Shown here: positions 1,893 through 46,632 of the stretch, in pieces
How the letters are laid out: every line of letters starts with the position of its first letter
How positions within the stretch are numbered: the first letter of the stretch is position 1
Virus record (IMG/VR): IMGVR_UViG_3300013101_000012
Location: 1-53,995 of that record
Length of the DNA stretch: 53,995 nt
Origin: a virus
Reading direction: 5' to 3' (one strand)
The notes under the pieces: model-generated
The model's input: only the letters and a program-made list of their open reading frames with translations
What the model was told of the DNA's origin: nothing
Databases searched by the model: none
Translations under genes and position numbers: made by a program

Positions 1893-3404
1893 ATGATAAC
1901 TACAAAAACTCCCCCAAAGTATAAAGAGAAAGATTTAAAGAAGAGATTCCCTGATAAAGGCACGGCCCCAGAATTAGGCACACCTGAATATCAAGAGTGG
2001 GAGACAGGCCAAAGAGATAGATTCCAAAATGCTATGGATTTTGGCCACGACTTGTCAGACTACATGGCCCGGTTACAAAACTTAAACCAACAATTAAAAT
2101 CAGATTTATCAGGTATTAGCCTTGATGATTTTGACGATTTCGCTGGACCGGGAATTGAACCCCCAACAGAAGCAGAAGCAGAAGCAGATATTTATAATAC
2201 TAATTTTCCTTCCCAAGATTTAGACGACGCCGAACTAGACCTTGAAGACGAGATGGCCAATGGTGCAGAAGCACAAGTTGATGATTTAGTTAGTTCTATT
2301 TTTCCTCTTAGTGGCGAAGAAAGGATGTTAAAACTTGATGATTTCCCCCCAAGTAATCAGGGCCTTCAAACTTTCCCAGACTCAGATAAACCAGAATTCA
2401 CAAATGAAACTCCCGGCCATCTTTGGGGTTTAGAAAAGCAATTGAATACAGACGATGAAGACGATTTTGAAAATATTGATTTAGCCCCTGGCCCAGAGTT
2501 TGACGACGACGACGGGCCAGAGGTTTTTCCTTTCGATGATAACGAATATGATTTACCAGACGATGAGGAATACGAAGACGATTTAGGCCCAGACTTAAGG
2601 CCCCCAGAAGTAGAAAGACCAGAAGACATAATAACAGAAGTACCCGACGAAGAAAGTCTATTAGACGACGCATCAGAGCCTTTAGAACCATCAGAGATGG
2701 ATTTAATCCCAGTAGAACCAGAAGCAGAAGACAATTGGCCATACCCGATCCCAGAAACTCCTGGCCTTGAACCACAACAAGATAAGGAAAAAATAGATAA
2801 TTTATTAGATAATTTATTTCCCGATTCTTTAGAAGAACCAGAAGCAGACTACGACTACTACTACGACGACGACGAAAATGAAACAGAAACGCCACGACAA
2901 CAACTTGAACTAGAACCAGAAAAAATTAATTTTGATGATTACAACCAAGACGACATGGACGATTTTGAAAAAGAATTAGACTTCAGGCCAGCAGAAGTTA
3001 TTGAACCTGGCCCGTATTCACAAGATGATTTAGATGATTTAGGGGTAGACGATCAGTCAATGGACGATACTATTGCTCAGAATCACCCTAAGTCTTTTTC
3101 TATGTATCATAAGGGCCAACATATCCCTAAGTGGGGATTTAGCTCTACAGACTGGAAAGATAGATTCAATAAAGGTTACGACAAGGCCAAGACAAAAGCA
3201 GATGCTATTTTACAACGCATGTCTAATGAAGAAGAAGCAGAAAAGAAAAGAAAAGAAATAGAAGCAGAAATGCAGAAGCAAAAGGCCCCCAGAGATATTG
3301 GCCCCTATAGAGGCAGGAAAGGCCCACGGCCACACTTAAACGAACCTAAAAGGAAATGGTGGAATCATAATAACTCACCACAATGGGTTAATACCAAGGA
3401 GTAA
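1893..3404 (+). CDS. Very acidic Asp/Glu/Pro-rich protein, 503 aa
   Basis: The N-terminal 60 residues are charged and ordinary. About residues 70-400 are dominated by Asp, Glu and Pro with recurring DDxDDF/DDLDDL patterns, and the last 110 residues (from about 395) are strongly basic, including runs such as KKRKEIEAEMQKQK and KGPRPHLNEPKRKWW. It has no membrane segment or catalytic motif, and most of it must be disordered. The charge layout is that of a DNA-mimic or a scaffold/chaperone-like protein, but neither can be shown. The ribosome site is weak (CTAGATAG). This stretch has an unusually high density of GGCC tetranucleotides. Confidence 0.75.
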   Translation: MITTKTPPKYKEKDLKKRFPDKGTAPELGTPEYQEWETGQRDRFQNAMDFGHDLSDYMARLQNLNQQLKSDLSGISLDDFDDFAGPGIEPPTEAEAEADIYNTNFPSQDLDDAELDLEDEMANGAEAQVDDLVSSIFPLSGEERMLKLDDFPPSNQGLQTFPDSDKPEFTNETPGHLWGLEKQLNTDDEDDFENIDLAPGPEFDDDDGPEVFPFDDNEYDLPDDEEYEDDLGPDLRPPEVERPEDIITEVPDEESLLDDASEPLEPSEMDLIPVEPEAEDNWPYPIPETPGLEPQQDKEKIDNLLDNLFPDSLEEPEADYDYYYDDDENETETPRQQLELEPEKINFDDYNQDDMDDFEKELDFRPAEVIEPGPYSQDDLDDLGVDDQSMDDTIAQNHPKSFSMYHKGQHIPKWGFSSTDWKDRFNKGYDKAKTKADAILQRMSNEEEAEKKRKEIEAEMQKQKAPRDIGPYRGRKGPRPHLNEPKRKWWNHNNSPQWVNTKE

Positions 3405-3407
3405 ATA

Positions 3408-3650
3408 TTGATACCCGACTATCCCAAATATTCACTTAAAGAGTTACAAGACTTTCCCCCTGGCCGAGTACTCTTTAGGCCAAACGACAAAGAGAAGGTA
3501 AAGATTTATAGGCCACGAAAGAAGAATTGTGACTTATGCCACAGGCCCCACGCAGATAAGGCCATTAAACATGAAATTAAGCCCAACAGAACATTATTAA
3601 GTGAGTGTTTCCTTTGCTTTATTATTCGTTCGACAATTACTCATCACTAA
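3408..3650 (+). CDS. Zinc-ribbon protein, 80 aa, TTG start
   Basis: The TTG start at 3408 is chosen because AAGGAG lies seven bases upstream and no ATG is available. Two CxxC pairs (CDLC near residue 41 and CFLC near residue 67), with a His/Lys-rich loop between them, form a plausible four-Cys zinc ribbon. The N-terminus contains a PGRVLFRPNDKEKVKIY stretch resembling a small beta domain. It lies four bases after the acidic protein gene. Such ribbons in phages are common in nucleic-acid-binding or protein-interaction adaptors; the exact role is unknown. Confidence 0.65.
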   Translation: MIPDYPKYSLKELQDFPPGRVLFRPNDKEKVKIYRPRKKNCDLCHRPHADKAIKHEIKPNRTLLSECFLCFIIRSTITHH

Positions 3651-3748
3651 TACTATGTAATCTTTATAGACCTATAAGAATACCCTTTACCCTTTAGCCT
3701 ACTATGTTAAGTTTCCCCTAGATAACAATTAATAACAGGAGGGCAAAA

Positions 3749-4138
3749 ATGAGAAAAGCTAAAACGTGTTCAGACTTAAATAACAAAAAAATGTCCAATG
3801 AAATTTATCTTCTAAGAAGAAAAGTAATCAACTTAATTTATGAGGCCAAAGAAGTGGCAAATCTTCCAAGGATTGACGTCAGAGTGACAGATACCCCAAG
3901 AAATTCAATCTTAGGAGTTGCCGGATTAAACGATAATATTATTTGGATTACAGAAAAAGCTATCTCTTACGGCGAAGCAAGATTACGCCACGTTGTTTAT
4001 CACGAAATAGTTCATGCCGTTACAGGGTTTAGGCACGACTCAGATTGCCCTTTAATGGCCCCAGTGATCCCAGAGTCTGTTAAGGGAAAGGCATTTTACC
4101 AAAGAGTTTTACTAGGGTATCTAGGAAGGAAACAATAA
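3749..4138 (+). CDS. HExxH zinc metallopeptidase-like protein, 129 aa
   Basis: The clear ribosome site AGGAGG (about 3738) fixes the ATG. The central motif YHEIVHAVTG gives the zincin HExxH, and a downstream His in GFRHDSDCPLM is in the right place for a third zinc ligand. An N-terminal beta-rich part (RIDVRVTDTPRNS, GLNDNIIWIT) precedes the active-site helix, as in minimal SprT/gluzincin-like peptidases. The length is that of a bare catalytic domain. There is no signal peptide, so it acts in the host cytoplasm or in the virion. Substrate unknown. Confidence 0.7.
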   Translation: MRKAKTCSDLNNKKMSNEIYLLRRKVINLIYEAKEVANLPRIDVRVTDTPRNSILGVAGLNDNIIWITEKAISYGEARLRHVVYHEIVHAVTGFRHDSDCPLMAPVIPESVKGKAFYQRVLLGYLGRKQ

Positions 4139-4386
4139 TGAACGATTCTTATATCAAAAATAGTCTCAACAAGGCCCTTTGTAATCTCGGTTATTCTATT
4201 AAAGAATATTATCAAGATAACCAACTACTTTGCTTTTATGTATCTGTACCAACTTTAAACGTAGCAAATCATATTTCAAGACAAGTAGATTATTTTCTAA
4301 AGACATATAACTGGTATGTTGTTAAAACATTAAAAACTAAAGACGGTTATCGTATTGATGCCAGACCACAAATGCAAATTGCATAA
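4138..4386 (+). CDS. Hypothetical protein, 82 aa
   Basis: ATG overlaps the stop of the metallopeptidase gene by one base (TAATG). The protein is a small alpha/beta domain: helix (NSLNKALCNLGYSIKEYYQ), strand (QLLCFYVSVPTL), helix (HISRQVDYFLKTYNW), strand (YVVKTLKT). This helix-strand order resembles a ferredoxin-like fold, but sequence alone does not prove it. No active-site motif is visible. Overlap with the peptidase suggests co-expression. Confidence 0.7.
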   Translation: MNDSYIKNSLNKALCNLGYSIKEYYQDNQLLCFYVSVPTLNVANHISRQVDYFLKTYNWYVVKTLKTKDGYRIDARPQMQIA

Positions 4387-4403
4387 TTATTTTAAGGATG
4401 GAA

Positions 4404-4607
4404 ATGGATTTACTTTATTTTAATTTACTCTTTAAACATAACACAACACATAAACCTATCTCTGTTACTTATCAGGCCTACACACAAAAAGAAGCATTAC
4501 TTGAAGGCCTTAAGTCTTATGGAGATACTCATAAACTCCAAACTATCACGCAAATTACTTTAGAAGATTATCGTTGTATTATAAACAAACAACCTATTAA
4601 TTCTTAA
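4404..4607 (+). CDS. Hypothetical protein, 67 aa
   Basis: Two in-frame ATGs exist, at 4398 and 4404. AAGGA at 4394-4398 would overlap the first but is five bases from the second, so 4404 (MDLLYFNLLF) is preferred. The protein begins with beta-like hydrophobic residues and then a helix (YTQKEALLEGLKSYG). No known family is recognised. It is the last gene before a 466-base stretch without a recognised large gene. Confidence 0.6.
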   Translation: MDLLYFNLLFKHNTTHKPISVTYQAYTQKEALLEGLKSYGDTHKLQTITQITLEDYRCIINKQPINS

Positions 4608-4679
4608 TTCCCTACTAAACTGTTTCTATCTGTTACTACACACTGCATAGTTTATCTTATTGAGAGAGAGGTAATCCAT

Positions 4680-4760
4680 ATGACAAATTTACAATTATAT
4701 ATATTTATCTGTTTTTACAATTTGCTATTACTTTTATTGATTTACTTAATCAGCTTCTAG
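4680..4760 (+). CDS. Possible 26-aa membrane peptide
   Basis: ATG at 4680 follows GAGAGAGAGG, a fair ribosome site about nine bases upstream. The peptide (MTNLQLYIFICFYNLL, then eleven more mainly hydrophobic residues) would form one transmembrane helix. It stands alone in an AT-rich region where hydrophobic codons arise easily, so it may be chance. Confidence 0.3.
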   Translation: MTNLQLYIFICFYNLLLLLLIYLISF

Positions 4761-4860
4761 CTCTAGCTAGTATGTTATATTATCTAGTATTTGATTTCAG
4801 ATGATTCCTAGATTTTGATTTTAGCAAGGTTTTAGATTATACAGATTTTAGATTTTGATT

Positions 4861-4996
4861 AAATTTATTAACCTTATATCCAAGTAGCGACTATAGATTT
4901 AGTTTTATCTAAAATTTATTAACCTTATATCCGACTATAGATTTAGTTTTATTTAAAATTTATTAACCTTATATTTAAAATTTATTAACCTTATAT
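4861..4996. repeat. Four perfect 19-bp iterons
   Basis: AAATTTATTAACCTTATAT occurs without mismatch at 4861-4879, 4912-4930, 4956-4974 and 4978-4996. Start-to-start distances are 51, 44 and 22 bases, the last two being multiples of about two helical turns. All copies have the same orientation. This is the appearance of a multi-site protein binding array such as an origin, a packaging site or an operator. Confidence 0.85.
4875..4902. repeat. 28-bp direct repeat, copy 1
   Basis: A 28-base sequence beginning TATATCCAAGTAGCG and ending ATAGATTTAG is repeated perfectly at 5680-5707. A shortened copy at 4926-4946 lacks seven bases (AAGTAGC) from the middle. Flanks are also similar: AACCTTA lies just before and TTTTATCT just after both full copies. 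Copy 1 overlaps the end of iteron 1. Confidence 0.85.
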
Positions 4997-5073
4997 TTAA
5001 ATCTCTATTTTATGCTATTGTATTTAAATCAGTAGGTTATATCTTTTTACCACCCTTACTATGGAGAGTTATT

Positions 5074-5535
5074 ATGAAAGAGGCCCCTAATCTTAAAGAT
5101 CTTCAAGACGAAATGATTAAAGGCATTGTAGCGACTCAAAATGCCCTATTCAGACAGGCAGGAAAAGAGACTAAGAGACTTGACCGCCTTTCTAATGCTA
5201 TTAACAGTGTAGAAAATGTCTTATTCGACGAAGACTTTATGGGCCAACTCCCGGCCCACCAGAAAGTTAAGCTCTATCAGTTAATGACAAATAACCAAGG
5301 ACAAACTCTAGATTTCCTTTCTAAGTTATCTAATAATCTCAGTACGTCGTTAGAGGCCCTTAATCATGTCCGTAAACTAGACAAAGCTACTGGTACTACT
5401 ACAGACCTACCCCTTGATAACTTTAAGGCCCAGATCAAGTCTCTTATCGACCTTAAAGGCAAAGAGACAATAGTTATTGATTTACAGTCAGCAAAAAAGC
5501 ATGAAGATTCTACCGATTCAACAGAAGCAGTTTGA
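5074..5535 (+). CDS. Helical protein between repeats, 153 aa
   Basis: ATG follows GGAGAG by about eight bases. The protein is almost entirely helical with heptad-like spacing (KRLDRLSNAINSVENVLF, TLDFLSKLSNNLSTSLEALN) and a hydrophilic tail. It stands alone, with the iteron array immediately upstream and a second copy of the 28-bp repeat 145 bases downstream. Size, helical content and position next to repeated DNA would fit a small terminase subunit or a DNA-binding regulator acting on the flanking repeats. No sequence signature proves either. The large terminase is nine kilobases away. Confidence 0.7.
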   Translation: MKEAPNLKDLQDEMIKGIVATQNALFRQAGKETKRLDRLSNAINSVENVLFDEDFMGQLPAHQKVKLYQLMTNNQGQTLDFLSKLSNNLSTSLEALNHVRKLDKATGTTTDLPLDNFKAQIKSLIDLKGKETIVIDLQSAKKHEDSTDSTEAV

Positions 5536-5560
5536 CTTTTATCTATTTGACGCATAAAAA
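5532..5560 (+). promoter_or_regulatory. Candidate sigma70-type promoter
   Basis: TTGACT (5532-5537), a 17-base spacer and TAAAAA (5555-5560) resemble a -35/-10 pair. The -35 overlaps the stop codon of the preceding gene. The -10 matches only four of six consensus bases, and no gene starts within 600 bases downstream, so it might drive a leader or non-coding RNA. Confidence 0.3.
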
Positions 5561-5579
5561 TCAAGGACATTTGATTTTT
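5556..5579. repeat. AT-rich inverted repeat after the 153-aa gene
   Basis: AAAAATCAA (5556-5564) and TTGATTTTT (5571-5579) are perfect 9-base arms around the loop GGACAT. In RNA this gives a weak hairpin ending in U residues, which could act as a modest terminator for the gene ending at 5535, or as an operator for the promoter it overlaps. Confidence 0.4.
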
Positions 5580-5679
5580 CACACACGTGCTAATCTATCT
5601 ATTTAGTAGCATAAATCACTAGCACAATTCCTAATGTATCACCACAAGACCCCTAGAGGCATCTGAATAAACCTTAGTG

Positions 5680-5707
5680 TATATCCAAGTAGCGACTATA
5701 GATTTAG
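5680..5707. repeat. 28-bp direct repeat, copy 2
   Basis: Identical over all 28 bases to 4875-4902, and 805 bases from it. Together the copies bracket the 153-residue gene. Recombination between them would delete that gene and the iterons. Confidence 0.85.
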
Positions 5708-5749
5708 AGAGGTTTTATCTTATAATTGTGGTGGAGGTTAAAAGAGGTT

Positions 5750-5767
5750 AAAGAAGTGTACTTCTTT
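5750..5767 (+). terminator. Small terminator-like hairpin
   Basis: AAAGAAG (5750-5756), loop TGTA and CTTCTTT (5761-5767) form a 7-bp stem followed by ATTTTAATT. The stem is weak and the U tract broken, so this is only a candidate for a factor-independent terminator. Confidence 0.35.
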
Positions 5768-5853
5768 ATTTTAATTACTCCACACTTTATGTCAACAACG
5801 CAGTAGCACATGATAAAATAGATTCCCCACCAATAGAAAAGCTTTCTCCCTGA

Positions 5854-5890
5854 ATAGTAGACAGTAGTACCCTACTACTACTACTACTAT
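5854..5890. repeat. Triplet-rich two-part hairpin
   Basis: Inner arms AGTAGTA (5863-5869) and TACTACT (5873-5879) enclose CCC. After a small internal loop, outer arms ATAGTAG (5854-5860) and CTACTAT (5884-5890) pair again. The right arm includes six tandem CTA triplets (5872-5889). It could be a structured RNA element or a DNA cruciform. Confidence 0.55.
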
Positions 5891-6089
5891 TTACTGCTGC
5901 TGGTAATAGGATGCTGTTACTGATGATGCTGATGCGACTCCCCGCATGTCATGTCTCCACGTGTGAGTATATATATATGATGGGGAAGCAGTAGCAGGGA
6001 GGGGAATCTCTAGTTACTCTTGGGAGGGAAGACGGGCCAGGGGCAGACAGCGAGCATAATATATCGGTGAGACACTTTTTAAATAATTG

Positions 6090-6118
6090 TTGACCGTTTC
6101 TATCTGGTATCTTATTTT
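6090..6118 (+). promoter_or_regulatory. Probable promoter of the late gene block
   Basis: TTGACC (6090-6095), a spacer of exactly 17 bases and TATTTT (6113-6118) lie about 52 bases upstream of the first gene of the large co-oriented block. The -35 matches five of six consensus bases and the -10 four of six. The spacer sequence GTTTCTATCTG also occurs at about 4621-4631, in front of the 26-residue peptide. Confidence 0.5.
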
Positions 6119-6170
6119 ATGGGCTCAAAAAAAAATGGCCTCATAGGGAGAAACACAGGGAGAAACTACA

Positions 6171-6476
6171 ATGTCCGATGAATACTACAGCACTTATTTA
6201 CGCAGGTGGCTTAAAAAAGACCTAGACGCAAAATCACGAGATAAATTATATGGCCGAGAAAGGGCCCAACGAGAAAAAACACAGGTAAAAGAAATAAGGG
6301 CCCAGGAGAAAAAGGCCTTAAGATCAAGTTTCTTTAGCGACTTAGGAAAACTAATTAAGCTATTTACCCCCAGAAAACAACGCAGTGGTGTTTGGAAAGG
6401 TTTAGGTAAAGGTATGGGGGGAAATTTATATCGTTCTCATGCTAAAGGCTACAAAAAGCCACCTCACAGTTTTTAA
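6171..6476 (+). CDS. Strongly basic protein, 101 aa
   Basis: The first gene after the promoter candidate, with GGGAG upstream of ATG. The protein is rich in Lys and Arg throughout (YLRRWLKKDLDAKSRDKLYG, then RERAQREKTQVKEIRAQEKK) and ends in a Gly/Lys-rich tail. It has no Cys, no membrane helix and no known motif. It is likely to bind nucleic acid or to be an internal head protein. The shared N-terminal tag seen in later genes is absent. Confidence 0.65.
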   Translation: MSDEYYSTYLRRWLKKDLDAKSRDKLYGRERAQREKTQVKEIRAQEKKALRSSFFSDLGKLIKLFTPRKQRSGVWKGLGKGMGGNLYRSHAKGYKKPPHSF

Positions 6477-6562
6477 ACAAAATTCCTTTTTTTATCAGTT
6501 AAGTCACTTTAAGTTACTAATTTCGCATTAAATTAATATTTTTCTTTTCTCACGGAGGAGAT

Positions 6563-6736
6563 ATGAAAATACTTATTGCCGCATTGTTTCTAATGTCTTG
6601 TGGTGGTTTTGACAGTTACGACTTTAAATACTGTGTAGATCGGCGTTACAAAGACATAAATGGTTATCAAATTTCTTATTGCCACGAGTATAAAACTGAT
6701 CGAGAGAGGGTTATGCATTTCTATGAGCGGAAATAG
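6563..6736 (+). CDS. Small phage lipoprotein, 57 aa
   Basis: ATG at 6563 is preceded by a strong GGAGGAG. The N-terminus MKILIAALFLMSCGG is a short signal peptide with a lipobox (LMSC), so the mature protein would start at Cys13 and be anchored to a membrane by lipid. The mature part is about 45 residues with two further Cys. This size and type match small phage lipoproteins such as outer-membrane spanin subunits or superinfection-exclusion lipoproteins. Which of these is not clear, and no lysis gene is adjacent. Confidence 0.65.
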   Translation: MKILIAALFLMSCGGFDSYDFKYCVDRRYKDINGYQISYCHEYKTDRERVMHFYERK

Positions 6737-6771
6737 TAGTCTTAAATTTGTCTCTGAGGCATACTTTATAC

Positions 6772-7785
6772 ATGACTAGGGCCATTGAAATATTAGAAGA
6801 TTCTGCAAGAGAAGATTTACCAATTAGGCGAGGTCTGGCAACTGGTGGTATCTCGGAAGTAGTTTATGCTTATCTAGTAAAAACTGAGGGCCAACCTATT
6901 AGGCGGGAAGATTTGGTGGCATTGGGTTTGAATTTTAATTCTGTTAAGTCCACCTTGGCCCGCCTAAAAAAACGGGGATATATTGAACCTGTTGAAAGTG
7001 TGACTGGAAAAGACGGGTATTTTAAAGTTAAGATTACAGGAAGACCGCCTCCTTCTTATACTTCTTATACTTCTTATACTTCTTATAACGACAAAAATGA
7101 CACAGCAAGGATTCCAAGTACTGAGGTAGATAACGATAACGACTACAATGGTTGGTTACTTTATATTTTAAAACTACATAGTGGTTGGTATCTAGGTATT
7201 ACTTCCGATTATGCCAATAGAATGAGGGCCCATCGGAGAAAGTACCGTGATGACTATATAAATACTGATGTTTTGTTTGATGGCCTTACTGAGCAAGAGG
7301 CCAATGATTTAGAAACTTCTTTAGTGCATCAATATACTAAGGAACGTCTTGGTTTTAAAAATAAAGTGAAGCGTTACCGGGATAGGTCAGACTGGGAAAT
7401 TGAGAGATACCCGGACGCTGTGTATAGAAATTTTTTAAAAAAAGACTCACATGGAGAATCTCTAGACATTCTAGAAGACCTTCTTCCCTTCCCTATAGAT
7501 ACCGAAAAAAAGTCCCGATTAGGAATCGAACCTTCTTCTAGAGAAGAAGTTGAGATGCAAGCTCGGGATTTTTTACGAGACATTAAAATCATTTTTCCTG
7601 ACCATACAATTTTTCCTACTGATCCTGAACTTGGAGTGGGGATAAGACTTGGTGATAGGTATTTGGAATGGCAAGAAGAGGCAACTCGTGGAGTGATGGT
7701 TAACCTTGAAGAAATACTAGGCGAGTACCCTTTTCTTCATTATACTTTTAAAGAAGACTCTAATTATATTATTTATAGCGAGTAG
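6772..7785 (+). CDS. Tagged winged-helix plus GIY-YIG nuclease, 337 aa
   Basis: An in-frame TTG at 6748 would add eight residues. ATG at 6772 is preferred because it gives MTRAIEILE, the signature shared by many genes here; neither start has a good ribosome site. A winged-helix part (about nt 6840-7010) contains SVKSTLARLKKRGYIEP. After a Thr-Ser-Tyr linker encoded by a 9-base repeat comes a GIY-YIG domain (about nt 7150-7350). It has LLYILKL, WYLGIT and RMRAH, and a distal Glu in EANDLETSLVHQ, supplying the Tyr, Arg/His and metal-binding Glu of that nuclease family. The C-terminal third is unrecognised. If the tag is a capsid-targeting sequence, this nuclease is packaged and injected. Confidence 0.75.
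   Translation: MTRAIEILEDSAREDLPIRRGLATGGISEVVYAYLVKTEGQPIRREDLVALGLNFNSVKSTLARLKKRGYIEPVESVTGKDGYFKVKITGRPPPSYTSYTSYTSYNDKNDTARIPSTEVDNDNDYNGWLLYILKLHSGWYLGITSDYANRMRAHRRKYRDDYINTDVLFDGLTEQEANDLETSLVHQYTKERLGFKNKVKRYRDRSDWEIERYPDAVYRNFLKKDSHGESLDILEDLLPFPIDTEKKSRLGIEPSSREEVEMQARDFLRDIKIIFPDHTIFPTDPELGVGIRLGDRYLEWQEEATRGVMVNLEEILGEYPFLHYTFKEDSNYIIYSE
7054..7086 (+). repeat. In-frame 9-base tandem repeat
   Basis: TCTTATACT is repeated three times plus six bases, encoding (Ser-Tyr-Thr) units that link the winged-helix and nuclease parts of the tagged nuclease. Copy number could vary without breaking the frame. Confidence 0.8.
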
Positions 7786-7821
7786 CGTAACTTTTTAAAT
7801 TAAGCGGTAAGAGGGTTAAAT

Positions 7822-8244
7822 ATGAGTACATACCTAAAAGCAAAAATGAGGTCCATGTTTGGTGATGCTTTTAAGGATGACCGAGTAGATGAGGGTGACA
7901 ATTGGGTTGACTATGACGAGGATTCTGGAATGGAGTCTGGGGAACCTGCTGAGAACAGCAATATGCAGAATTTTGTAACTGCTGTAAACGATAAATGGCC
8001 CACAGGAAGAAGAGATAGTCATTTGGCGGGTATTTGGCCTGATGGCCAAGGATATATTACAGCGGAAGATTATTATAATTTTAGAGATCCTCAGACTGGC
8101 GAAAAGGTAATAGGTAAATTAGCAGATGCTTACGATCCCGAACCTCAGTGGATTGATCCAGAGTTAAAAGCATTGGCCCAAGAGTTTAACATCTTTATAG
8201 ATTGGCAAGATGCCGGGACATTGGTTTTATATGACGAGAGCTAA
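7822..8244 (+). CDS. Hypothetical acidic protein, 140 aa
   Basis: ATG is preceded by GAGGG. The first 20 residues (MSTYLKAKMRSMFGDAFKD) are helical, then come a very acidic segment (DEGDNWVDYDEDSG) and a Trp/Tyr-rich part. The short N-terminal helix does not match the LLE-type tag. It ends 14 bases inside the next gene. Function unknown; the position suggests another internal head or accessory protein. Confidence 0.65.
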   Translation: MSTYLKAKMRSMFGDAFKDDRVDEGDNWVDYDEDSGMESGEPAENSNMQNFVTAVNDKWPTGRRDSHLAGIWPDGQGYITAEDYYNFRDPQTGEKVIGKLADAYDPEPQWIDPELKALAQEFNIFIDWQDAGTLVLYDES

Positions 8245-8944
8245 TAAAATATTAGAGGCGGGTAAAGGAAGATCTAATTGGATTTCTAAAAAATGGCGTG
8301 ACCTTGAAGATGAACCCTTACCAGACACCAGAGACATAGATACATACTATCGTTATGATCAGGATCAGGGTTTAAGTTTCCAGGGGGTCGACCCCGAATA
8401 TTTTTCAGTATCTGAGATACCTCAAGGGCCTGAAGGAAGTTACTACCCAGCAGAACCTAAATATAATAATCGTCGTGGACCTCTAGATAGGGAAGAGGAG
8501 ATAGAAGACATCCCAAAAGAAAAACCTGCTACGGCCTTGGAGCTTGAAAAAATAGGTAGGTGGTTTAAAAAAGCTAAAACTAAAAAGCCCCCTACGAAAG
8601 CTGCTGTCTCTGCTAATACTAGGGAGATTAGAAGCTTAACTAGTTGGTATAAAAATACAGTAGATAATGAATCAGATCCCCAAGCTAGAAAATTGATTAG
8701 AGCTAAATATTTAAGGGGATTGAAGGCATTGACTGGTGTGCGAGAGGGTAGGGCGAAAAATATGTTAGGGTATGGTTGGAGAGATCAGCAATTACTCTTC
8801 GACTCAGTCGAAGATGCCTGGAAAAATGGTCATCGAGATGTTTCAGATATTTTCAACATAGTTTACCCTATGCTAAAGAGGGAAGGGCTTGAACTGAGTG
8901 AAGAAGGCATAAGATTTGCCGTGCAACATATAATGAACAAATAA
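8231..8944 (+). CDS. Tagged protein of unknown function, 237 aa
   Basis: An ATG at 8210 is in frame, but the ATG at 8231 gives MTRANKILE, the same tag as its neighbours, and is chosen for that reason. It overlaps the previous gene by 14 bases. After the tag comes an acidic, Tyr-rich disordered segment, then a basic helical domain from about residue 100 (GRWFKKAKTKKPPTKAAV) and a compact helical C-terminus with conserved-looking aromatic residues (MLGYGWRDQQLLF). No family is recognised. The predicted cut is after Glu9. Confidence 0.65.
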   Translation: MTRANKILEAGKGRSNWISKKWRDLEDEPLPDTRDIDTYYRYDQDQGLSFQGVDPEYFSVSEIPQGPEGSYYPAEPKYNNRRGPLDREEEIEDIPKEKPATALELEKIGRWFKKAKTKKPPTKAAVSANTREIRSLTSWYKNTVDNESDPQARKLIRAKYLRGLKALTGVREGRAKNMLGYGWRDQQLLFDSVEDAWKNGHRDVSDIFNIVYPMLKREGLELSEEGIRFAVQHIMNK

Positions 8945-14368: not shown

Positions 14369-17300
14369 ATGGATTTAGATGAGCTATCAGAAGATCAACT
14401 AAAAGGACTTTTAAGCTCTCTTGAGCATTATCAAAGTATTCCTGTTGATATGGATACTTTTCTTGATGACAAGTACTACTTAGGTGCATATTTTGGTGAA
14501 AAAGGAATTCAACCTTATTGGCGAGAATTTCTTAAAAAAGTTTTTGACTCTCCATTTAATTCAGAACAATGGTTAATTTGTTTGCGTGGTGCGATAGGCC
14601 AGGGAAAATGCTTACAAAAAGACTCAACTATTATTAAGTATGATGGGACTGTTGTAAAAGTTCAAGATTTAGTTCCTGGTGATCTTATAATGGGGCCAGA
14701 TTCTAAATCTAGAACTATTTTATCTACCCATGCTGATACAGGCCCTATGTTTGAAATAAACCCTATTAAGGGTGATCCATGGGTTTGTAATGATGTCCAT
14801 GTATTAACACTTAAAAAAACTCCACAAGGCTTAAATAGGTATGGAAATACTAGGGGGTCAACTAAACCAGAGATTATAGATGTTGCTCTTGATGAGTACC
14901 TTAATTGGTCTAAAAGTCAAAAGAACTTATATAAGTTATTTAGAGTCCCTGTTGATTTTCCTGAGCAACATCCAAGAGAGCTAGACCCTTACTTTCTAGG
15001 TGTTTGGTTAGGTGATGGTACTTTAGGGGAAGCCCAAATTACTAACTCAGATCAGGAGATATTATCTTTCTTATCTGATTTTACTCTTAAAGAAAATTTT
15101 AGTTCACACACTCTTTTAGACAAACGTACGGAGTGTCCAAGAGTAAACATCACTACAGAAAAAGGACAACCAAACCACCTTAGACGATATTTAAGAGACA
15201 CCTTTTCAGTGGGCAAACATATCCCACAACTTAATAAAACGGGTAGTAGGGAAGAAAGACTCCAGCTTCTTGCGGGATTACTTGATACTGATGGCCACCT
15301 TGTAGATAATGTTTTTGAACTTACCCTTAAAGAAGAAGATTTTATTGATGATGTTCTTTTTGTTGCTAGAAGTCTTGGTTTTGGTACCTCAAAAAAATTA
15401 AAACAAGTTAAATTAAAAACATGGGATAAACCTAGAGATTATTTTAGGATAAAGATATTTGGGGATTTAGATAAAATCCCTACGAAAGTAAAAAGAAAAC
15501 AAGCAAGTCCAAGAAGGCAGAAAAAAGACCCTTTAAAAACAGGGTTTTCTGTTATTCCTAAAGGCCCAGGGGAATATTTTGGTTTTGAGCTTGACGGAGA
15601 TGGGAGGTTTTTACTTGAAGATTTCACAGTCACACATAATACTACAATTGCCTGTGTTGGAATTTCTTACGATATACACAGATTACTATGCTTATATAAT
15701 CCTCAGGGTGCTTTCGGTCTGCTTCCAGACACAATAATTCTTTTTGCTATCTTCAATGTAACGATGGCACTAGCACAGGATGTTGTTTGGCAGACTCTTT
15801 CAGGAATGTTTGCTAGAAGTCCTTATTTCACTGAAATAATAAAAAAGTTACCTAAACAAAAACCAGAATCTAATCCTATGTTTCCTAAAAATATCGGTTT
15901 ATTTATTGGTTCACGGCTAGGCCACACACTAGGAAAAGCTGTTTTCTCTTGTCTTCCTGGTAGTGTTCCAATTCCTACGATACACGGAGAAGTGCCTCTA
16001 ATAGAGATTGTTCGGAATCCAGGGGATCATAAGGTTTTTTCTTATGATACGGCTCTTGAAAAAGCTGTGCTAGGTGAAGTTACTCATGGCCAGAGTATGG
16101 GAACAAAAGAAGTCTGGAAAATATTTTTGTCCAACGGCCATTTTATAGAAGCCACTCAAGATCATAAGTTCTTATTGAGTAATAATTCATATAAAACACT
16201 AGCAGAATTAGATTATTTAGATGCTTTGACTTTTTTCGTACCCCCCACTGCTCTACAAGTATCTAGCTCTCCCGTTTTAGTTGTTTCTAAAGAGATTGTT
16301 GGAATGAGACAGGTGTACGATATTTCAGTAGAACCACATCATAACTTTGCTACTAGTGCTGGTATCTTTGCTCACAACTGCTTTGCTGGTGATACTGAGA
16401 TTCCCTTATTAGATGGGTCTGTTGTTAAAATAAAAGACTTAGTAGGTAACTATAAAGACAAATATACAATATCAGTTGATCTCACAAGAAAAAGTGTAGT
16501 CCCAGGTAAAATTATAGCCGCAGCCAAAACAGGAACTAGAAAAGTTTATAAAGTTACTTTTGATAATGGTAAATCTTTTAAATGTACTGCTGATCATAAA
16601 ATATTACATAGAAGTGGTAAATATAAAGAACTCAGATATTTTGAAGTAGGTGACGCAGTATTTTCAATTAATAGTCACACAGGGAAATCGGGACACACTA
16701 AAATAAGGAACCCTTACACAGGAGAGTATGAGGCCTTACACCATCATATTATGGCCTGGAAGTTAGGTAATAAACTAGGTTACAATATTCACCATAAAGA
16801 TTTAGATAAATTAAACAACAACCCTGAAAACTTGTGCCTGTTATCAAAGTCTAAGGCCATGTCTAAATTTTATTCTGAGGATAATAGAGAAGAGGTTTTA
16901 AGAGTTAGGAAAGCTGGTTGGAGAACTAGAATACTTAAGAAGTCCTATAGAGAGTACTCAGATACTGGCTTCATCCCTGATATAAATGTTAATGTATTAA
17001 GAAAATATTTTAATGATGATATTACTGAGTATCTTGAGTGTGTTAAAGAATACAATCATAAAATTGTTAGTATTGAATATGTGGGTGTTGAAGATGTCTA
17101 TGATATTACTGTGGATAAATACCATAACTTCACTACTCAAACAAATGTCGTAGTTTCAAATTGTTTAATTGATGAAGCAAACTTTGAAATTGTCCATGGC
17201 CAGGTGTACGAGTCTTTTCTATCTATCTTAAGAAGGATGGAATCACGATTTTCTTCTAATGCTCCTGTAGGAACTGGTAGGGTCTGGTTGGTTTCCTCAG

Positions 17301-19501
17301 AATCACAAAAGAATTCTACTCTAAATAGAATTATCAACTCTTATAAAGGTAAAAGTGGTTGTTTAGTATCACAAGCATCTTTATGGGAAGTTTATCCAGA
17401 AAGGTATGGTACTACTACATTTCAAGTTTTCACTGGTGTAGATACTAGGGCCCCAGAAGTTATTACTGAAGCCACTGAAGATTTGGTGGATTTGTACCCA
17501 GAAAAGATTATAGAGGTTCCTACTGAGCATAAAGAGTCTTTTGAAGCTGACATTTACGCAGCGTTAAAAGATTTAGCAGGGATAGAAGTTGGTGGAGGGG
17601 CAAGACTCTTCAGACTCAAAGATAAACTTAATAAAATGTTAATTGGTCCCACGTTCTTTCCAGATGTAGTTACACTGGATTTTGATGGACCTGACCAAAT
17701 ACAAAATTTTTCTAGTATTCCTTTTGATTTTAAGCGAATACCACGTTGTATTCATCTCGATTTGGCCCTAACAGGGGATAGATTAGGGATTGCTTCTTCT
17801 TATATTGTTGATTTTGCTATTAGAACTACTCGTGATCCTATTCGTTTAATTGATGTTCGGGAGTCTAGACCCAAGATTCAGGTAGATTTTGCCTTTGCAA
17901 TATCTCCCGTCAAAGGAAAACAAATTCCTTTGTATAAAATTAGGTCGTTTATTAGTTGGCTATCGTCAATCGGATACCCTATTCACTGTATCACGGCAGA
18001 TAGTTTTCAATGCTTTTTGTCAACTACTCTTGTCCCCACAGATTCTGGTTACAAAGAAATTAAAGATATTGAGGTAGGTGATTTAATCCAATCAAGATCA
18101 GGGCCTAAAAAGGTTCTTAACAAGTGGGGGTTTGGGGAACAAGAAACTTTAAAAATTACTACTCAAGAAGGTTTGACTGTTGAAGGGACTGGAAAACACA
18201 AAATAGAGGTGGCCAAAAATCTCAGAAATTATAAGGCTAAAAGGGCATCAGATGCTAGATGGGAGTGGTTAAGACTTGATGAAATTCAAATAGGTGATGT
18301 TGTAAGAACTATGTCCGCTAATGAAACCCTTGTTAAATGTCCTGTAGTTCCTTTAGAACCCCCTGCGATTAATACAGATATAGGTAAGTTTAAGGATTTT
18401 CATTACCCAGAAACTCTAGATGAAGAGTTAGCTGAGTTTTTAGGTTACTTCTCTGGTGATGGTTGTGCGGATACATATTGTATTAGATTGACTTGTAATA
18501 GAGATGACTCTTTAGACTATAAACAGGTTGTTGGGAACCTTGTAGGTGATAGATACTTATTTTCAGAGTGTAATGACCGCTATGCGGATGTCATATATTT
18601 ACATTCTAAAACATTTATTACTTGGTTAAACCATTATAAATTATTAGATAAGTCCTCTATCCCAGAACTTATTTGGAAATCTCCTGTGAGTGTTCAAGCG
18701 GCATTTTTAAGAGGTTTATTCTCTTCGGATGGAACTTGTTCTAAAGAAGATGGGAGAGTTTCTATTAATACTGCTACTCCCCAAATAGCTGAAGATGTTC
18801 AATTAATGCTCCAATGCTCTTTTGGTATTAGATCAAATAGATCAGAACATTTTAGGGAAGGTTTTGGGAAAACTATTTATTTTGTGACTCTATCTGGCCC
18901 TCGACAGAATTTTTATACCCAGATAGGTTTTTCCACGAAGCGAAAGATTGAGATTTTAGAAAAGCACTTAAATATCAAAGGAAGAAATCTTTTATATAAA
19001 GTTCAGTCTATAGAAGGCTCAAAAGGTCTTGTTTTTGATATTGAGGTAGAAGATGACCCTTCTTATGTGGCCAATGGGTTTGTTTCACATAACTCTGCCG
19101 ACCTACTACAACAACTAAAAAGACAAGGATTTAAGACTTTCGTTCAATCTGTCGATAAAACAACTGATGCTTATGTGGCATTAAGAAATACCATATATGA
19201 AGGTGACTGTGTTCTTCCAAACAACAAGATTTTAAAAAGAGAGTTAGAAGAATTAGAGTTCATTAAAGATGGTAAAAAAGTAGATCACCCCGTAGTGTTT
19301 GGCGATGGTATTCCTGGGTCTAAAGATGTTGCCGATGCAGTAGCAGGTAGTGTTTGGACTTGTGTTAATGAAGCAGATACTTTTAGGGCAATTCGCTCTG
19401 CTGAAGAGTTGGCATATAAGATGGAGGCGATGGAACAACAATCACATGATATAAAGGATCAATTATGGCCACAGTTAGCAAGAAAACAAGGACGAGAATA
19501 A
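14369..19501 (+). CDS. Terminase large subunit with four inteins, 1710 aa
   Basis: The exteins total 601 residues (80, 103, 283 and 135), a normal size for a packaging ATPase-nuclease. Joined exteins give Walker A GAIGQGK-TT, Walker B VFS-CLIDEANF and the RNase H-like nuclease acids HLDLALTGD, ADSFQ-SADLL and SKDVADAVAG. It cuts concatemeric DNA and pumps it into proheads at the portal. Inteins occupy residues 81-424, 528-670, 671-931 and 1215-1575, about 65% of the precursor. Each interrupts a catalytic motif, so the enzyme should be inactive until spliced. ATG at 14369 is the first start after an in-frame stop and lacks a ribosome site. Confidence 0.95.
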   Translation: MDLDELSEDQLKGLLSSLEHYQSIPVDMDTFLDDKYYLGAYFGEKGIQPYWREFLKKVFDSPFNSEQWLICLRGAIGQGKCLQKDSTIIKYDGTVVKVQDLVPGDLIMGPDSKSRTILSTHADTGPMFEINPIKGDPWVCNDVHVLTLKKTPQGLNRYGNTRGSTKPEIIDVALDEYLNWSKSQKNLYKLFRVPVDFPEQHPRELDPYFLGVWLGDGTLGEAQITNSDQEILSFLSDFTLKENFSSHTLLDKRTECPRVNITTEKGQPNHLRRYLRDTFSVGKHIPQLNKTGSREERLQLLAGLLDTDGHLVDNVFELTLKEEDFIDDVLFVARSLGFGTSKKLKQVKLKTWDKPRDYFRIKIFGDLDKIPTKVKRKQASPRRQKKDPLKTGFSVIPKGPGEYFGFELDGDGRFLLEDFTVTHNTTIACVGISYDIHRLLCLYNPQGAFGLLPDTIILFAIFNVTMALAQDVVWQTLSGMFARSPYFTEIIKKLPKQKPESNPMFPKNIGLFIGSRLGHTLGKAVFSCLPGSVPIPTIHGEVPLIEIVRNPGDHKVFSYDTALEKAVLGEVTHGQSMGTKEVWKIFLSNGHFIEATQDHKFLLSNNSYKTLAELDYLDALTFFVPPTALQVSSSPVLVVSKEIVGMRQVYDISVEPHHNFATSAGIFAHNCFAGDTEIPLLDGSVVKIKDLVGNYKDKYTISVDLTRKSVVPGKIIAAAKTGTRKVYKVTFDNGKSFKCTADHKILHRSGKYKELRYFEVGDAVFSINSHTGKSGHTKIRNPYTGEYEALHHHIMAWKLGNKLGYNIHHKDLDKLNNNPENLCLLSKSKAMSKFYSEDNREEVLRVRKAGWRTRILKKSYREYSDTGFIPDINVNVLRKYFNDDITEYLECVKEYNHKIVSIEYVGVEDVYDITVDKYHNFTTQTNVVVSNCLIDEANFEIVHGQVYESFLSILRRMESRFSSNAPVGTGRVWLVSSESQKNSTLNRIINSYKGKSGCLVSQASLWEVYPERYGTTTFQVFTGVDTRAPEVITEATEDLVDLYPEKIIEVPTEHKESFEADIYAALKDLAGIEVGGGARLFRLKDKLNKMLIGPTFFPDVVTLDFDGPDQIQNFSSIPFDFKRIPRCIHLDLALTGDRLGIASSYIVDFAIRTTRDPIRLIDVRESRPKIQVDFAFAISPVKGKQIPLYKIRSFISWLSSIGYPIHCITADSFQCFLSTTLVPTDSGYKEIKDIEVGDLIQSRSGPKKVLNKWGFGEQETLKITTQEGLTVEGTGKHKIEVAKNLRNYKAKRASDARWEWLRLDEIQIGDVVRTMSANETLVKCPVVPLEPPAINTDIGKFKDFHYPETLDEELAEFLGYFSGDGCADTYCIRLTCNRDDSLDYKQVVGNLVGDRYLFSECNDRYADVIYLHSKTFITWLNHYKLLDKSSIPELIWKSPVSVQAAFLRGLFSSDGTCSKEDGRVSINTATPQIAEDVQLMLQCSFGIRSNRSEHFREGFGKTIYFVTLSGPRQNFYTQIGFSTKRKIEILEKHLNIKGRNLLYKVQSIEGSKGLVFDIEVEDDPSYVANGFVSHNSADLLQQLKRQGFKTFVQSVDKTTDAYVALRNTIYEGDCVLPNNKILKRELEELEFIKDGKKVDHPVVFGDGIPGSKDVADAVAGSVWTCVNEADTFRAIRSAEELAYKMEAMEQQSHDIKDQLWPQLARKQGRE
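14609..15640 (+). mobile_element. Intein 1 (Walker A site), LAGLIDADG type, 344 aa
   Basis: It begins with Cys (CLQKDSTIIKYDGT, block A) directly after the Walker A Lys and ends VTHN before extein Thr-Thr, so the +1 nucleophile is Thr. Blocks C and E of a LAGLIDADG homing endonuclease are visible: LGVWLGDGTL (about 14998) and LLAGLLDTDGHLV (about 15267). Both motifs keep their acidic residues, so the endonuclease may be active. P-loops of ATPases are a known favoured intein site. Confidence 0.92.
15950..16378 (+). mobile_element. Intein 2 (Walker B site), mini-intein, 143 aa
   Basis: It starts CLPGSVPIPT after AVFS, has block B as IEATQDHKFLL (Thr-x-x-His), block F VYDISVEPHHNF and ends GIFAHN. 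All splicing blocks are present in 143 residues with no endonuclease domain. The following residue is Cys1 of intein 3, not an extein residue, so intein 3 supplies the +1 nucleophile unless it has already spliced out. Confidence 0.9.
16379..17161 (+). mobile_element. Intein 3 (Walker B site), HNH type, 261 aa
   Basis: It starts CFAGDTEIPLLDGS immediately after the Asn of intein 2. Block B is FKCTADHKILH. An HNH endonuclease segment lies at about 16740-16863 with NIHHKDLDKLNNNPENL. Block F is VYDITVDKYHNF and the end is VVVSN, with Ser instead of the usual penultimate His. The +1 residue is the Cys of the Walker B strand (CLIDEANF). Confidence 0.9.
18011..19093 (+). mobile_element. Intein 4 (nuclease site), LAGLIDADG type, 361 aa
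   Basis: Starts CFLSTTLVPTDSG after ADSFQ and ends FVSHN before extein SADLL, so +1 is Ser. Block B is LTVEGTGKHKIEV. LAGLIDADG motifs FLGYFSGDGCAD (about 18437) and FLRGLFSSDGTC (about 18703) keep their acidic residues. Block F is VFDIEVEDDPSYVANG. It interrupts the second acidic motif of the terminase nuclease domain. Confidence 0.92.
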
Positions 19502-33040: not shown

Positions 33041-36000
33041 ATGTCACAATCAGCAAAAGTAAATGTCAAAGAGATTGACCAAAGTGTTCGGGTAGCTAGT
33101 TTTCCGGGTCTTTACAACGCTATTGTAATTCCTGCATATAAAGGCCCAATAAATAAACCTGTGATGGTGACTTCGGAAAATCAGTTTTTACGGAATTTTA
33201 CTCCAAATAATACTGTTGAGGTGGGATATGATTTATCTTATTATTCTGCATTAACTGTCTTAGAAAACACAAATAGATTATGGGTAGTTCGTGCTGCTAA
33301 TGAAGCAATAGCTTCTGGGGCAACAATAAGATCAATTGATTCTTCTGTAGAGTCTTCCACTTGGGAAACTGGGATGGAAGATCCCGAAGATTATTTATTT
33401 GATCTTGCACCAGACACAGTAGCTACTACACAGCAAACAACTATTAAAACCCATGCAGATATCGTCATTCCAGCAGAGGCTGAGGTTACAAATATTGCGA
33501 CAACGCCAGATTTTGTAACACCAGCAACTTCAGAAATATGTACGCTAACCTGCCCCCCTGACACATCTAATAACTTAAATAGTAAGTATTTTAACATGGA
33601 GATTTTAACTCCGGGCCTGACCCTAGAAACTCTTGAGATTTTCTTTGATACAGATGGATCTGGGGTAGCTGTCGGGATTGCTGATAGGGCAATTAAAGTT
33701 GTTACTACTACTGATGCTACTGCTCCAGCCGTAGCCGCCGCTTTGGAAGCGGCATTAAACTCGGACAATGGCGGATTATCATTTAATGTAACTAGATCTG
33801 GTAGTGTCTGTACTGTTTTATACAACGAAGCAGGTAATGTTAAAGATGCTATAGACGTGGACTCAACAGTTGCCGTAATAGTTACCCAACAAGGTGTGGA
33901 CGATATTTCATCACTTGATGGGGGATTTTTCATTCTTCAGGAAAACGCTGGAACTGTAGGTTGTTGGTATAATATCTCAGGAAGTACTATTCCTCCCACA
34001 GGCGCGACTTCTACAAATAGGCAAATTGAGATAACTACAGTTAATGCAGGATCTTCTGCTGCTGAAATTTCTCAAGATACTGCTTCTGCTATCTTGTTAG
34101 ATGGGTCGTTTGAGGCCACAGGGTTTTCTAATATTATAACTATAACCAATCAAGATGTTGGTGATCTACCAAATGCGGTAGATGGGAACACAGGATTTAC
34201 CTTTACAATTCCCGTAGAAGGTAAAAATGCAGAGTCATCTCTTCAAGGGAAGGGTTTTGAAATTCAAGACAAAGATGGGTCTGTAGGTATCTGGATTGAT
34301 ATTTATCAAGAACAACAAATTACTAGAATCCAAACAGTAGCAGATATCCCTGGAGGTCCACCAGTACCAGAAGTTACTGACTTTAGTGTCACAGGGACTC
34401 CAGTGGCGGGGGAGTACTTTACTCTTTATGAATCTGGATTAGCCCCTAGAGATATTTATTATGCTGTTGACGGTGGAGTTATAACCCCACCTGCTACAGG
34501 CACAAGCACACCACTTAAAGTAGATGTTATGTCTTGGGATAACTCTGCGGATGTTGCTGCTAAAACTGCTGCTGTGATTGGTGCTGACGGTAGTTTTTCT
34601 GCTACTAACACAGCAGGGACGGCACAAGTAGATACTCTACAGGTAACTTTAAATGCTACTGCTTTATCTAACCTTTATTTTGTTTTAAACAATGGAACAG
34701 ACGATATTACTTTTTGGTATGACCTAGATGGAACAGGGACTGCCCCTGCTGTTAATGCCACAGAGGTAGCAATCGCAGTAGTTACAGGTGAAACTATAGC
34801 TCAAGTATTAGTATTAACGACAAGTGCGGTTGATGGTATGGCCCAGTTTGGTTGTACTGATGATGCTGTGAGTATTCTAACTATCACAATGACTCCAACA
34901 GGACCAGTTACTCACTCTATAGGTAATTCAACCTTTACATTAGCTAATACACTTCTCGGTGTTGCAGGCTCTACTACTCTTGAGGTCACTAATGCAATTG
35001 CCGGAGATGTTCCCGACGCTCTTGATGGTATCGGAGTAAATGGTACTGGTTTTATAATTACAGTCACTATTCAAGGCCAAAATACAACTTCACCAGCATC
35101 TCTAGAAGGTAGTTTTTTCTACCTTTATCAGGCAGCCACTGAGACTACACTGGAAGAAAAAATAGCTGTGTGGTTTCAATTTGGGACAACACCTACTCCT
35201 GCATTTGATGTAGATGTAAATAGACAAATTATTGTAACAACAGTTGCCCCTGGGGACTCTGATGTTGTTGTAGCCAACAAGCTGCAATCTACTCTAAACG
35301 CTGACAACTTTTTCAGTGCAAGTGTTCTCGGAAGCACTCTTCTTTGTACAAGTGATAATATTGGTAAAACTCTTGATGCCACAGATGTATCTACAGGGTT
35401 CACTATTGAAACTCAACAAGAGGGCGTAGAAACACCTCCTGCAATGCTTTTACTCGATAGATATATCGTTGTGAGAACATTAGCTGCAGGAGCTTCTGCA
35501 GATGAGGTAGCCGCAGGGATAGCCGTATCTATTCAAGCAGACGATGAATACACTGCTAGTTCAATATTAGATATCACAACTGTTTTAGATAATGTTGCTG
35601 GGCTTCGCCCAGGAGAAACTCTAGATATTGATTCTGGTTTTATTGTTTTAGTAGCAGTAGAAGGTCTAGATGATGTCACAGCAATAGACGAAGTATTTAT
35701 TCTTTACTCTAGCTCCCCTGGTAAGTGGGGTGACTCTGTTTCTTTTACCTTATTGAATTACCTTGATGATCCAGACCAAGTAAAAATCGAAGGGGCATTC
35801 CAGATAGATGTTTATTACGATATGGTTTTACTTGAGTCCTTTATTTGTTCTAGAGATATTGCTGCCATTGATGGGTTTGGTAGATCAATGTTCATTGAAA
35901 ATGTGCTTGAAGCATCCGGCTTCATCAGGGCCATGAACAATGAAGGGATTGATTATTCCATTACACCTAGAAGTCAAAGTGAAATAACACCTCTTGGAGG

Positions 36001-36709
36001 GGGTGATAATGGTTTTGCTGTAACTGATGGTGATATGATGATTGCCCTTGAATCTCTACAAAATCCAGATGATATCACTGTTAATGTTATTGTTGATGGT
36101 GGGAGAGCAACACCTGCTTGGGGCCAAGCTTTAAATACTTTTGCATCCAATAGGACAGATTGTATTGCAATGCTTTCTGTAGATTACGCTGCTGAAAACT
36201 CTACTGAGTATGTCACCGAGATTGTGAACTATAGAAAACTTGACCTTGCAATTAACTCTTCATACGCGGCTTTATATTCTTCTCATCTTTTAACTTACGA
36301 TAAGTTTAATGGCAGAGAACTTTATGTCTCTCCTGAGGCCTACGCTGCCCAGAGGTTAAATTTTACTGCTCAAATATTTGATCCTTGGTATCCTGCTGCT
36401 GGTAACACTAGAGGTGTTATTAATGTCTTGGACACTAAAATTAGATTCACAGAAGGTGAAAGAGATACTCTATATAATGTTAATATTAACCCAATAAAGT
36501 TTGACACTACTGGCGGGATTATTATTTGGGGACAAAAGACTCTTCAAACTAAACCATCGTCTCTTGATAGGGTTAACGTAAGGATGCTTTTAATTGTTAT
36601 TGAACCAGCGATTAAACGAGTTCTTCAAGACTTTTTATTTGAACTTAATGATATAACAACAAGAACAATTGTGTCTCTCTTATTTCTAATTACATGGACA
36701 CCATTCTAG
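33041..36709 (+). CDS. Tail sheath protein, enlarged, 3' frame broken
   Basis: The N-terminus (residues 1-125) matches gp18-type sheaths: VRVASFPGLYNAIVIPAYKG and LWVVRAANEAI. Core sheath sequence resumes near residue 887 (SSSPGKWGDSVSF) and includes PAAGNTRGVINVLD and FDTTGGIIIWGQKTL. Between them are about 760 residues of five to six tandem beta-rich domains of about 100 residues each, probably displayed outside the tail. The frame ends ITWTPF, out of register. The true C-terminus lies in the -1 frame (36685-36885). Losing one T at TTT (36683-36685) explains this; restored length is 1281. Confidence 0.88.
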   Translation: MSQSAKVNVKEIDQSVRVASFPGLYNAIVIPAYKGPINKPVMVTSENQFLRNFTPNNTVEVGYDLSYYSALTVLENTNRLWVVRAANEAIASGATIRSIDSSVESSTWETGMEDPEDYLFDLAPDTVATTQQTTIKTHADIVIPAEAEVTNIATTPDFVTPATSEICTLTCPPDTSNNLNSKYFNMEILTPGLTLETLEIFFDTDGSGVAVGIADRAIKVVTTTDATAPAVAAALEAALNSDNGGLSFNVTRSGSVCTVLYNEAGNVKDAIDVDSTVAVIVTQQGVDDISSLDGGFFILQENAGTVGCWYNISGSTIPPTGATSTNRQIEITTVNAGSSAAEISQDTASAILLDGSFEATGFSNIITITNQDVGDLPNAVDGNTGFTFTIPVEGKNAESSLQGKGFEIQDKDGSVGIWIDIYQEQQITRIQTVADIPGGPPVPEVTDFSVTGTPVAGEYFTLYESGLAPRDIYYAVDGGVITPPATGTSTPLKVDVMSWDNSADVAAKTAAVIGADGSFSATNTAGTAQVDTLQVTLNATALSNLYFVLNNGTDDITFWYDLDGTGTAPAVNATEVAIAVVTGETIAQVLVLTTSAVDGMAQFGCTDDAVSILTITMTPTGPVTHSIGNSTFTLANTLLGVAGSTTLEVTNAIAGDVPDALDGIGVNGTGFIITVTIQGQNTTSPASLEGSFFYLYQAATETTLEEKIAVWFQFGTTPTPAFDVDVNRQIIVTTVAPGDSDVVVANKLQSTLNADNFFSASVLGSTLLCTSDNIGKTLDATDVSTGFTIETQQEGVETPPAMLLLDRYIVVRTLAAGASADEVAAGIAVSIQADDEYTASSILDITTVLDNVAGLRPGETLDIDSGFIVLVAVEGLDDVTAIDEVFILYSSSPGKWGDSVSFTLLNYLDDPDQVKIEGAFQIDVYYDMVLLESFICSRDIAAIDGFGRSMFIENVLEASGFIRAMNNEGIDYSITPRSQSEITPLGGGDNGFAVTDGDMMIALESLQNPDDITVNVIVDGGRATPAWGQALNTFASNRTDCIAMLSVDYAAENSTEYVTEIVNYRKLDLAINSSYAALYSSHLLTYDKFNGRELYVSPEAYAAQRLNFTAQIFDPWYPAAGNTRGVINVLDTKIRFTEGERDTLYNVNINPIKFDTTGGIIIWGQKTLQTKPSSLDRVNVRMLLIVIEPAIKRVLQDFLFELNDITTRTIVSLLFLITWTPF

Positions 36710-46269: not shown

Positions 46270-46632
46270 ATGGCCCTCAGTGACTTAAACCAGTTTACTC
46301 CTCTTGAAAGTCAAATTGTAGAGGACTCTGAAGTGATATATCAGAGTATTTATAATTTGCTATCCACTAAACCAGGCGAGCGGTTGTTTCGCCCACATTT
46401 GGGTTTAGACTTAGATGACTGGTTATTTGAAATAATGAATGAAGATGCGATAAGCATTATTAAAAACCAGTTAATCAACTCTTTAAAAAGATTTGAGCCG
46501 AGGGTTGTTTTAGACATTCCAAATACTAAAATAGTCCCCCACCCAGAAAAACATAGTTATGAGATAGATATATCTTTTTCTATAATTGGGCTTGGGGGAG
46601 AATTTAACTTAACAGGTGAGCTAACAAGATGA
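46270..46632 (+). CDS. Baseplate wedge protein, gp25-like, 120 aa
   Basis: STKPGERLFRPHLGLDLDDW and the following helix LFEIMNED give the gp25 signature, a lysozyme-like fold that fastens sheath to baseplate. Length is standard. It is followed by the gp6-like wedge gene with a four-base overlap, the usual order in contractile systems. Confidence 0.9.
   Translation: MALSDLNQFTPLESQIVEDSEVIYQSIYNLLSTKPGERLFRPHLGLDLDDWLFEIMNEDAISIIKNQLINSLKRFEPRVVLDIPNTKIVPHPEKHSYEIDISFSIIGLGGEFNLTGELTR

Follow-up and report, generated by a model that had tools for sequence, protein, structure and literature searches.

A phage terminase gene with four inteins

The window, by which we mean the whole stretch of 53,995 bases analysed here, is a single virus record classed as linear, a metagenomic contig. 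It carries a terminase large subunit gene whose one open frame encodes a precursor of 1710 aa, in which extein accounts for about 601 aa and four inteins, a, b1, b2 and c, for 1109 aa (Table 1). The extein sequence left when the inteins are taken out is that of a terminase large subunit in which the Walker A, Walker B and nuclease motifs are all kept. Its closest relative is found on the IMG/VR contig L013 (49% identity over 581 aligned positions), and it is 31-36% identical to the terminases of seven phages (SP-15, phiLo, RHph_TM21B, IME392, Colly_1, Ab1-TPeters and RcZahn); close relatives of the extein were obtained with an alignment as query, a single-protein query giving none.

Intein a sits in the P-loop between Lys and Thr (GQGK/TT, the slash marking the insertion point; +1 Thr), a position also occupied in the contigs L026 and L119. 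The P-loop mini-intein of L026 (5561-5995) starts with Ala, not Cys (GAGK/ALSINEL...FTHN/TSF). Intein c interrupts the conserved D-x-[YF]-Q/S motif of the nuclease domain (DxFQS; +1 Ser). The original prediction dealt with the Walker B site, which it described completely, but the same gene also holds inteins a and c, which it had left out.

Table 1. Position of the terminase gene, its inteins and two other genes in the window
Feature	Position	Strand	Description
Terminase large subunit precursor	14369..19501	+	One open frame; PHROG terminase large subunit matches; extein alignment
Intein a	14609..15640	+	344 aa, LAGLIDADG; Pfam Hom_end_hint and LAGLIDADG_3
Intein b1	15950..16378	+	Mini-intein, 143 aa, CLPGSV...GIFAHN, without endonuclease, ends His-Asn
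Shared junction cysteine	16379..16381	+	Cys1 of b2 and +1 residue of b1
Intein b2	16379..17161	+	261 aa, CFAGDT...VVVSN, HNH domain, ends Ser-Asn
Walker B remainder CLIDEANF	17162..17185	+	True start of the C-extein; its Cys serves b2 as +1
Intein c	18011..19093	+	361 aa, LAGLIDADG; profile matches and extein alignment
Tail sheath protein	33041-36709		Very large (1222 aa); sheath families match part of its length only
Baseplate-wedge-like protein	46629-48926		765 aa; C-terminal stretch matches a head-decoration family

Two inteins abut in the Walker B strand

The Walker B strand had been predicted to be interrupted by two complete, abutting inteins, and both the profile boundaries and the AlphaFold/PDB alignment bear this out at the positions of Table 1. 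The NCBIfam intein_Nterm match begins at residue 1 in b1 as in b2, and the intein_Cterm match stops in both at the last Asn, position 23 of the 24 of the model, position 24 being the +1 residue. Together with the alignment of the b2 model, these profile ends place Cys1 of b2 directly after Asn143 of b1, with no extein residue between them. The same boundaries support the further proposal that the +1 residue of b1 is Cys1 of b2 unless b2 leaves first. A nested intein is ruled out, b1 and b2 being each contiguous and lying end to end.

A chance reading frame is ruled out as well, by 404 stop-free codons (chance probability about 5e-15 at the local base composition) and by the 21-66 stops present in each of the remaining five frames of b1 and b2. 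The 23-base core encoding HN/C[LF]xGDT occurs once in the window and in none of 100 shuffles. It could be argued that the assembler chained b1-only and b2-only alleles from a mixed population, as the tandem comes from a lone metagenomic contig, classed linear, and no second contig with it was found. However, b1 joins b2 exactly, in frame and without a gap; the two have no 12-base word in common and no 13-base word of either recurs elsewhere in the gene, so that a graph assembly would have had no overlap through which to chain two single-intein alleles. We thus regard an assembly artefact as improbable.

Splicing residues and fold of b1 and b2

Both inteins match the Pfam Intein_splicing profile (46.9 bits for b1 and 60.1 bits for b2, with a cut-off of 35.8). 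In b1, blocks A, B, F and G are CLPGSV, ATQDH, VYDISVEPHHNF and FAHN, and the class 1 residues are all present: Cys1, the T-x-x-H of block B, the Asp/His of block F (VYD...HHNF), the terminal His-Asn and a +1 Cys. The corresponding residues of b2 are Cys1, the block B CTADH, the block F VYD...YHNF, the terminal Asn and a +1 Cys (SN/C). Between blocks B and F, residues 119-160 of b2 match Pfam HNH_3 with 35.5 bits (cut-off 24.8). By its domain content, b2 would therefore be an HNH homing-endonuclease intein, and homing activity is predicted for it.

Two blocks depart from the consensus, block A of b1 (CLPGSV) and block G of b2 (QTNVVVSN). These atypical blocks, and the missing endonuclease of b1, would fit a scenario in which one of the inteins is a decaying remnant, the phage lineage being defective or the insertion very recent. 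Yet the nucleophiles, the block B TxxH, the block F Asp/His and the terminal Asn are intact in both, without any stop or frameshift, and decay of either intein therefore seems very unlikely. Nor is the penultimate Ser of b2 a bar to function, since about 5% of functional inteins have a penultimate residue other than His (PMC4031507), and a Ser-Asn ending is also found in Npu DnaE and in L149, a relative of b2. The exteins are open and conserved, and a terminase is presumably indispensable to the phage, so that failure to splice should be lethal.

In an AlphaFold model of the segment with its flanks, b2 (residues 169-429) spans PDB inteins from first to last residue, with Z up to 23.7, whereas b1 shows an intein-like strand order at a pLDDT of about 60-75, obtained without any aligned row covering it. 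A single-sequence AlphaFold prediction gave a pLDDT of 32. As the VIA-align structure matches cover mainly b2 (165-432), the fold of b1 rests on its sequence matches, the closest of which in the PDB are DnaE inteins, and on the secondary structure of the model.

The Walker B site in other phages

Pattern searches for Asn-Cys ahead of Walker B recovered lone inteins at the exact codon of the b site in L116 and L119 (contiguous mini-inteins) and in L117/L120 and L128 (split), with C-terminal pieces in L118 and L126. Others lie one codon upstream, in SP-15, L133 and L138 (split) and L137 (contiguous), with C-terminal pieces in L135 and L136. At least 12 phage contigs thus have a single intein, intact or split, at the b site or one codon upstream of it, and none has two. 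The Walker B site is therefore an intein hotspot, used in two insertion phases one codon apart (h/C-h-h-D-E and [FY]/C-G-h-h-D-E), and many of its occupants split their genes. The Walker B inteins of SP-15, L116, L117/L120, L119, L128, L133, L137 and L138 resemble those of the window in lying in a homologous terminase, at the same or the adjacent codon, with an HN/C junction; they differ in that each site holds one intein and that many of the genes are split.

The b site is empty in L013, the closest relative, and the 80 closest terminases retrieved are all uninterrupted across it, in a sample picked by similarity to the spliced sequence and hence biased towards intein-free genes. L119 has an extein 27-29% identical to that of the window gene and, with a P-loop intein as well as its lone Walker B intein, looks like the window gene minus b2.

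Two of these loci have further features. The terminase of Bacillus phage SP-15 is in pieces (KT624200.1, 9000-20000; positions 3316-8870 of that segment), with an HNH intein near Walker A and, at Walker B, a split intein whose site precedes that of the window by one codon; a further interruption, possibly an intron, contains an endonuclease-like ORF. The pieces are annotated as hypothetical proteins and a truncated terminase. In L128 (8600-10605, minus strand), the split intein lies at the exact Walker B site, and the ORF of its N-half is fused to a GIY-YIG/NUMOD3-like endonuclease (SegE_GIY-YIG E 0.006, below the cut-off; NUMOD3 just above the cut-off), while its C-half has its own ORF, which overlaps that of the N-half. 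A GIY-YIG enzyme within an intein is unusual.

Ancestry of the two inteins

The HINT (splicing) parts of b1 and b2 are 34% identical. In a tree of 27 rows, b1 pairs with L119_b (bootstrap 83/SH-aLRT 80, under the strict cut-off), and b2 falls with phage HNH inteins of many genes and with the SP-15 intein near Walker A (84/88). The putative kinship of b1 and L119_b is moderately supported, and the support for neither grouping is strong. The 34% identity and the different tree positions indicate that neither intein is a recent copy of the other, and a recent tandem duplication is thereby ruled out.

We consider b1 to be probably the older element, a mini-intein without endonuclease, and b2 to be probably an HNH intein that arrived later and inserted directly next to it. 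The simplest history would be that b2 invaded a site already holding b1, which is plausible since the HNH domain is present in b2 and missing from b1, and since b1 resembles the lone resident of L119. The reverse order, with b1 arriving after b2, is possible. The G+C content (0.385 in b1, 0.319 in b2 and 0.34-0.38 in the exteins) does not separate old from new. A scan for promoters and terminators gave nothing above chance, and a tRNA scan found none.

Order of splicing

In class 1 inteins, the N-extein is first held by Cys1 as a thioester and then transferred to the +1 residue; cyclisation of Asn comes next, and an acyl shift forms the peptide bond (PMC4031507). At the b1-b2 junction, one cysteine cannot serve as the acceptor of b1 and the donor of b2 at the same instant, and the two reactions must therefore be ordered. 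We think it probable that b1 and b2 act as two distinct class 1 inteins in series, removed by two successive cis-splicings of which that of b1 most likely comes first, and that b2 is the later arrival. The N-terminal thioester of b1 would be handed to the thiol of Cys1 of b2; Asn143 of b1 would then cyclise, and an S-N shift would join the extein Ser to Cys1 of b2. What is left would be an ordinary single-intein b2 precursor with Ser at -1, and b2 would in turn splice onto the extein Cys, giving the intact Walker B strand KAVFS-CLIDEANF. The mature terminase is the same whether b1 leaves first, b2 leaves first or both are removed jointly.

If b2 went first, Asn143 of b1 would be joined to the extein Cys, and b1 would then splice with a true +1 Cys. 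This would return b1 to its ancestral context if L119_b is its relative (HN/C-h-h-DE), and the phage HNH-intein family to which b2 is assigned occurs in many genes and junction contexts. But b2 would then form its thioester on the carbonyl of Asn143, and class 1 chemistry (PMC4031507) suggests that the side chain of this residue can attack it, a premature succinimide cleavage that could free b1 unligated; this risk favours departure of b1 first. Moreover, the penultimate His is present in b1 and absent in b2. We consider it unlikely that b2 leads.

Excision of b1 and b2 as one 404-aa unit, started by Cys1 of b1, accepted by the extein Cys and completed by cyclisation of Asn261 of b2, would imply either a domain-swapped HINT, the N-half of b1 pairing with the C-half of b2, or that one intein is inactive. 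The ends are compatible with it, domain-swapped intein structures are on record (PMC8175363, in its accessible text; PDB 5bkh), and an alignment without the C-exteins does pair the N-half of b1 with the C-half of b2, which may be an aligner artefact as much as evidence. However, each intein has its full set of blocks, cross-pairing is not expected at 34% identity, and the model pairs the two halves of b2 with each other at high confidence (pLDDT about 90 for its HINT regions, the alignment used favouring this pairing). Joint excision is thus very improbable.

Returning to a first step by b1, folding or splicing could be impeded by the Asn at -1 of b2, or by two active sites having to share a single peptide bond. 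It is conceivable, and we put it forward tentatively, that b1 and b2 have become an interdependent unit, b1 needing the thiol of Cys1 of b2, in an obligatory relay of fixed order through one shared cysteine.

Implications

The usual view is that an intein keeps rivals out of the site it occupies, since its presence interrupts the target sequence and since every intein needs an extein nucleophile at +1. The zero-spacer pair suggests that occupancy does not bar a second invasion and that one intein may use the catalytic cysteine of another as its +1 residue. If the relay exists, it would amount to protein splicing in a natural cascade of two stages, and would offer a homing intein a route into an occupied site. 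The tandem makes three ideas testable: relay splicing, two active sites on one peptide bond, and an HNH endonuclease that needs a half-site only. It might also find use in engineering as an ordered two-step splicing element without a residual linker.

Rarity and comparison with known systems

A search of IMG/VR and of 84,980 prokaryote genomes with the motif HN/C[LF]xGDT returned no further zero-spacer pair, at a recall of roughly a quarter to a third; every hit was either a frame arising by chance or an intein preceded by an HN that belongs to the extein. The motif fits about one third of the inteins gathered, and with this low recall the scan bounds the rarity of the arrangement and does not prove it unique. 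The shortest non-zero spacing that we saw is in L153 and L154 (from 6001), which have two inteins per ORF with only 18 extein residues between them (SMDNDAIIASALDIYADE). In the literature searched, we found no natural abutting intein pair, so that the view that no such tandem had been described holds within that literature, where the sole comparable case is engineered (PMC4339811). As far as this can be tested, the components are known in kind and the arrangement is new.

The nearest natural parallels in terms of site are the TerL inteins of mycobacteriophages, five representatives of which have been shown to splice (PMC5050341). According to the accessible text of that study, TerL1-a and TerL1-e resemble the window inteins in their insertions at the P-loop Lys/Thr and at Walker B of phage terminases, and the sites of TerL1-a and TerL1-b are one residue apart; unlike our case, no abutting pair at one site is reported there, and TerL1-c and TerL1-e are class 3. 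The MCM inteins (PMC10643990) are likewise two in one gene, near enough to influence each other's homing, but they have separate insertion sites with extein in between. The engineered dual-intein (DI) domain, Ssp DnaE(N159A) with Ssp DnaB(C1A) (PMC4339811), also has two serial HINT domains in one chain; in contrast to the window pair, it is artificial, joined by a linker and mutated so that cleavage replaces splicing. Finally, the Npu and Ssp DnaE inteins (2keq, 4kl5), the nearest solved relatives of b1, have the same class 1 HINT fold and +1 Cys, with a Ser-Asn end as in b2, but are single and naturally split.
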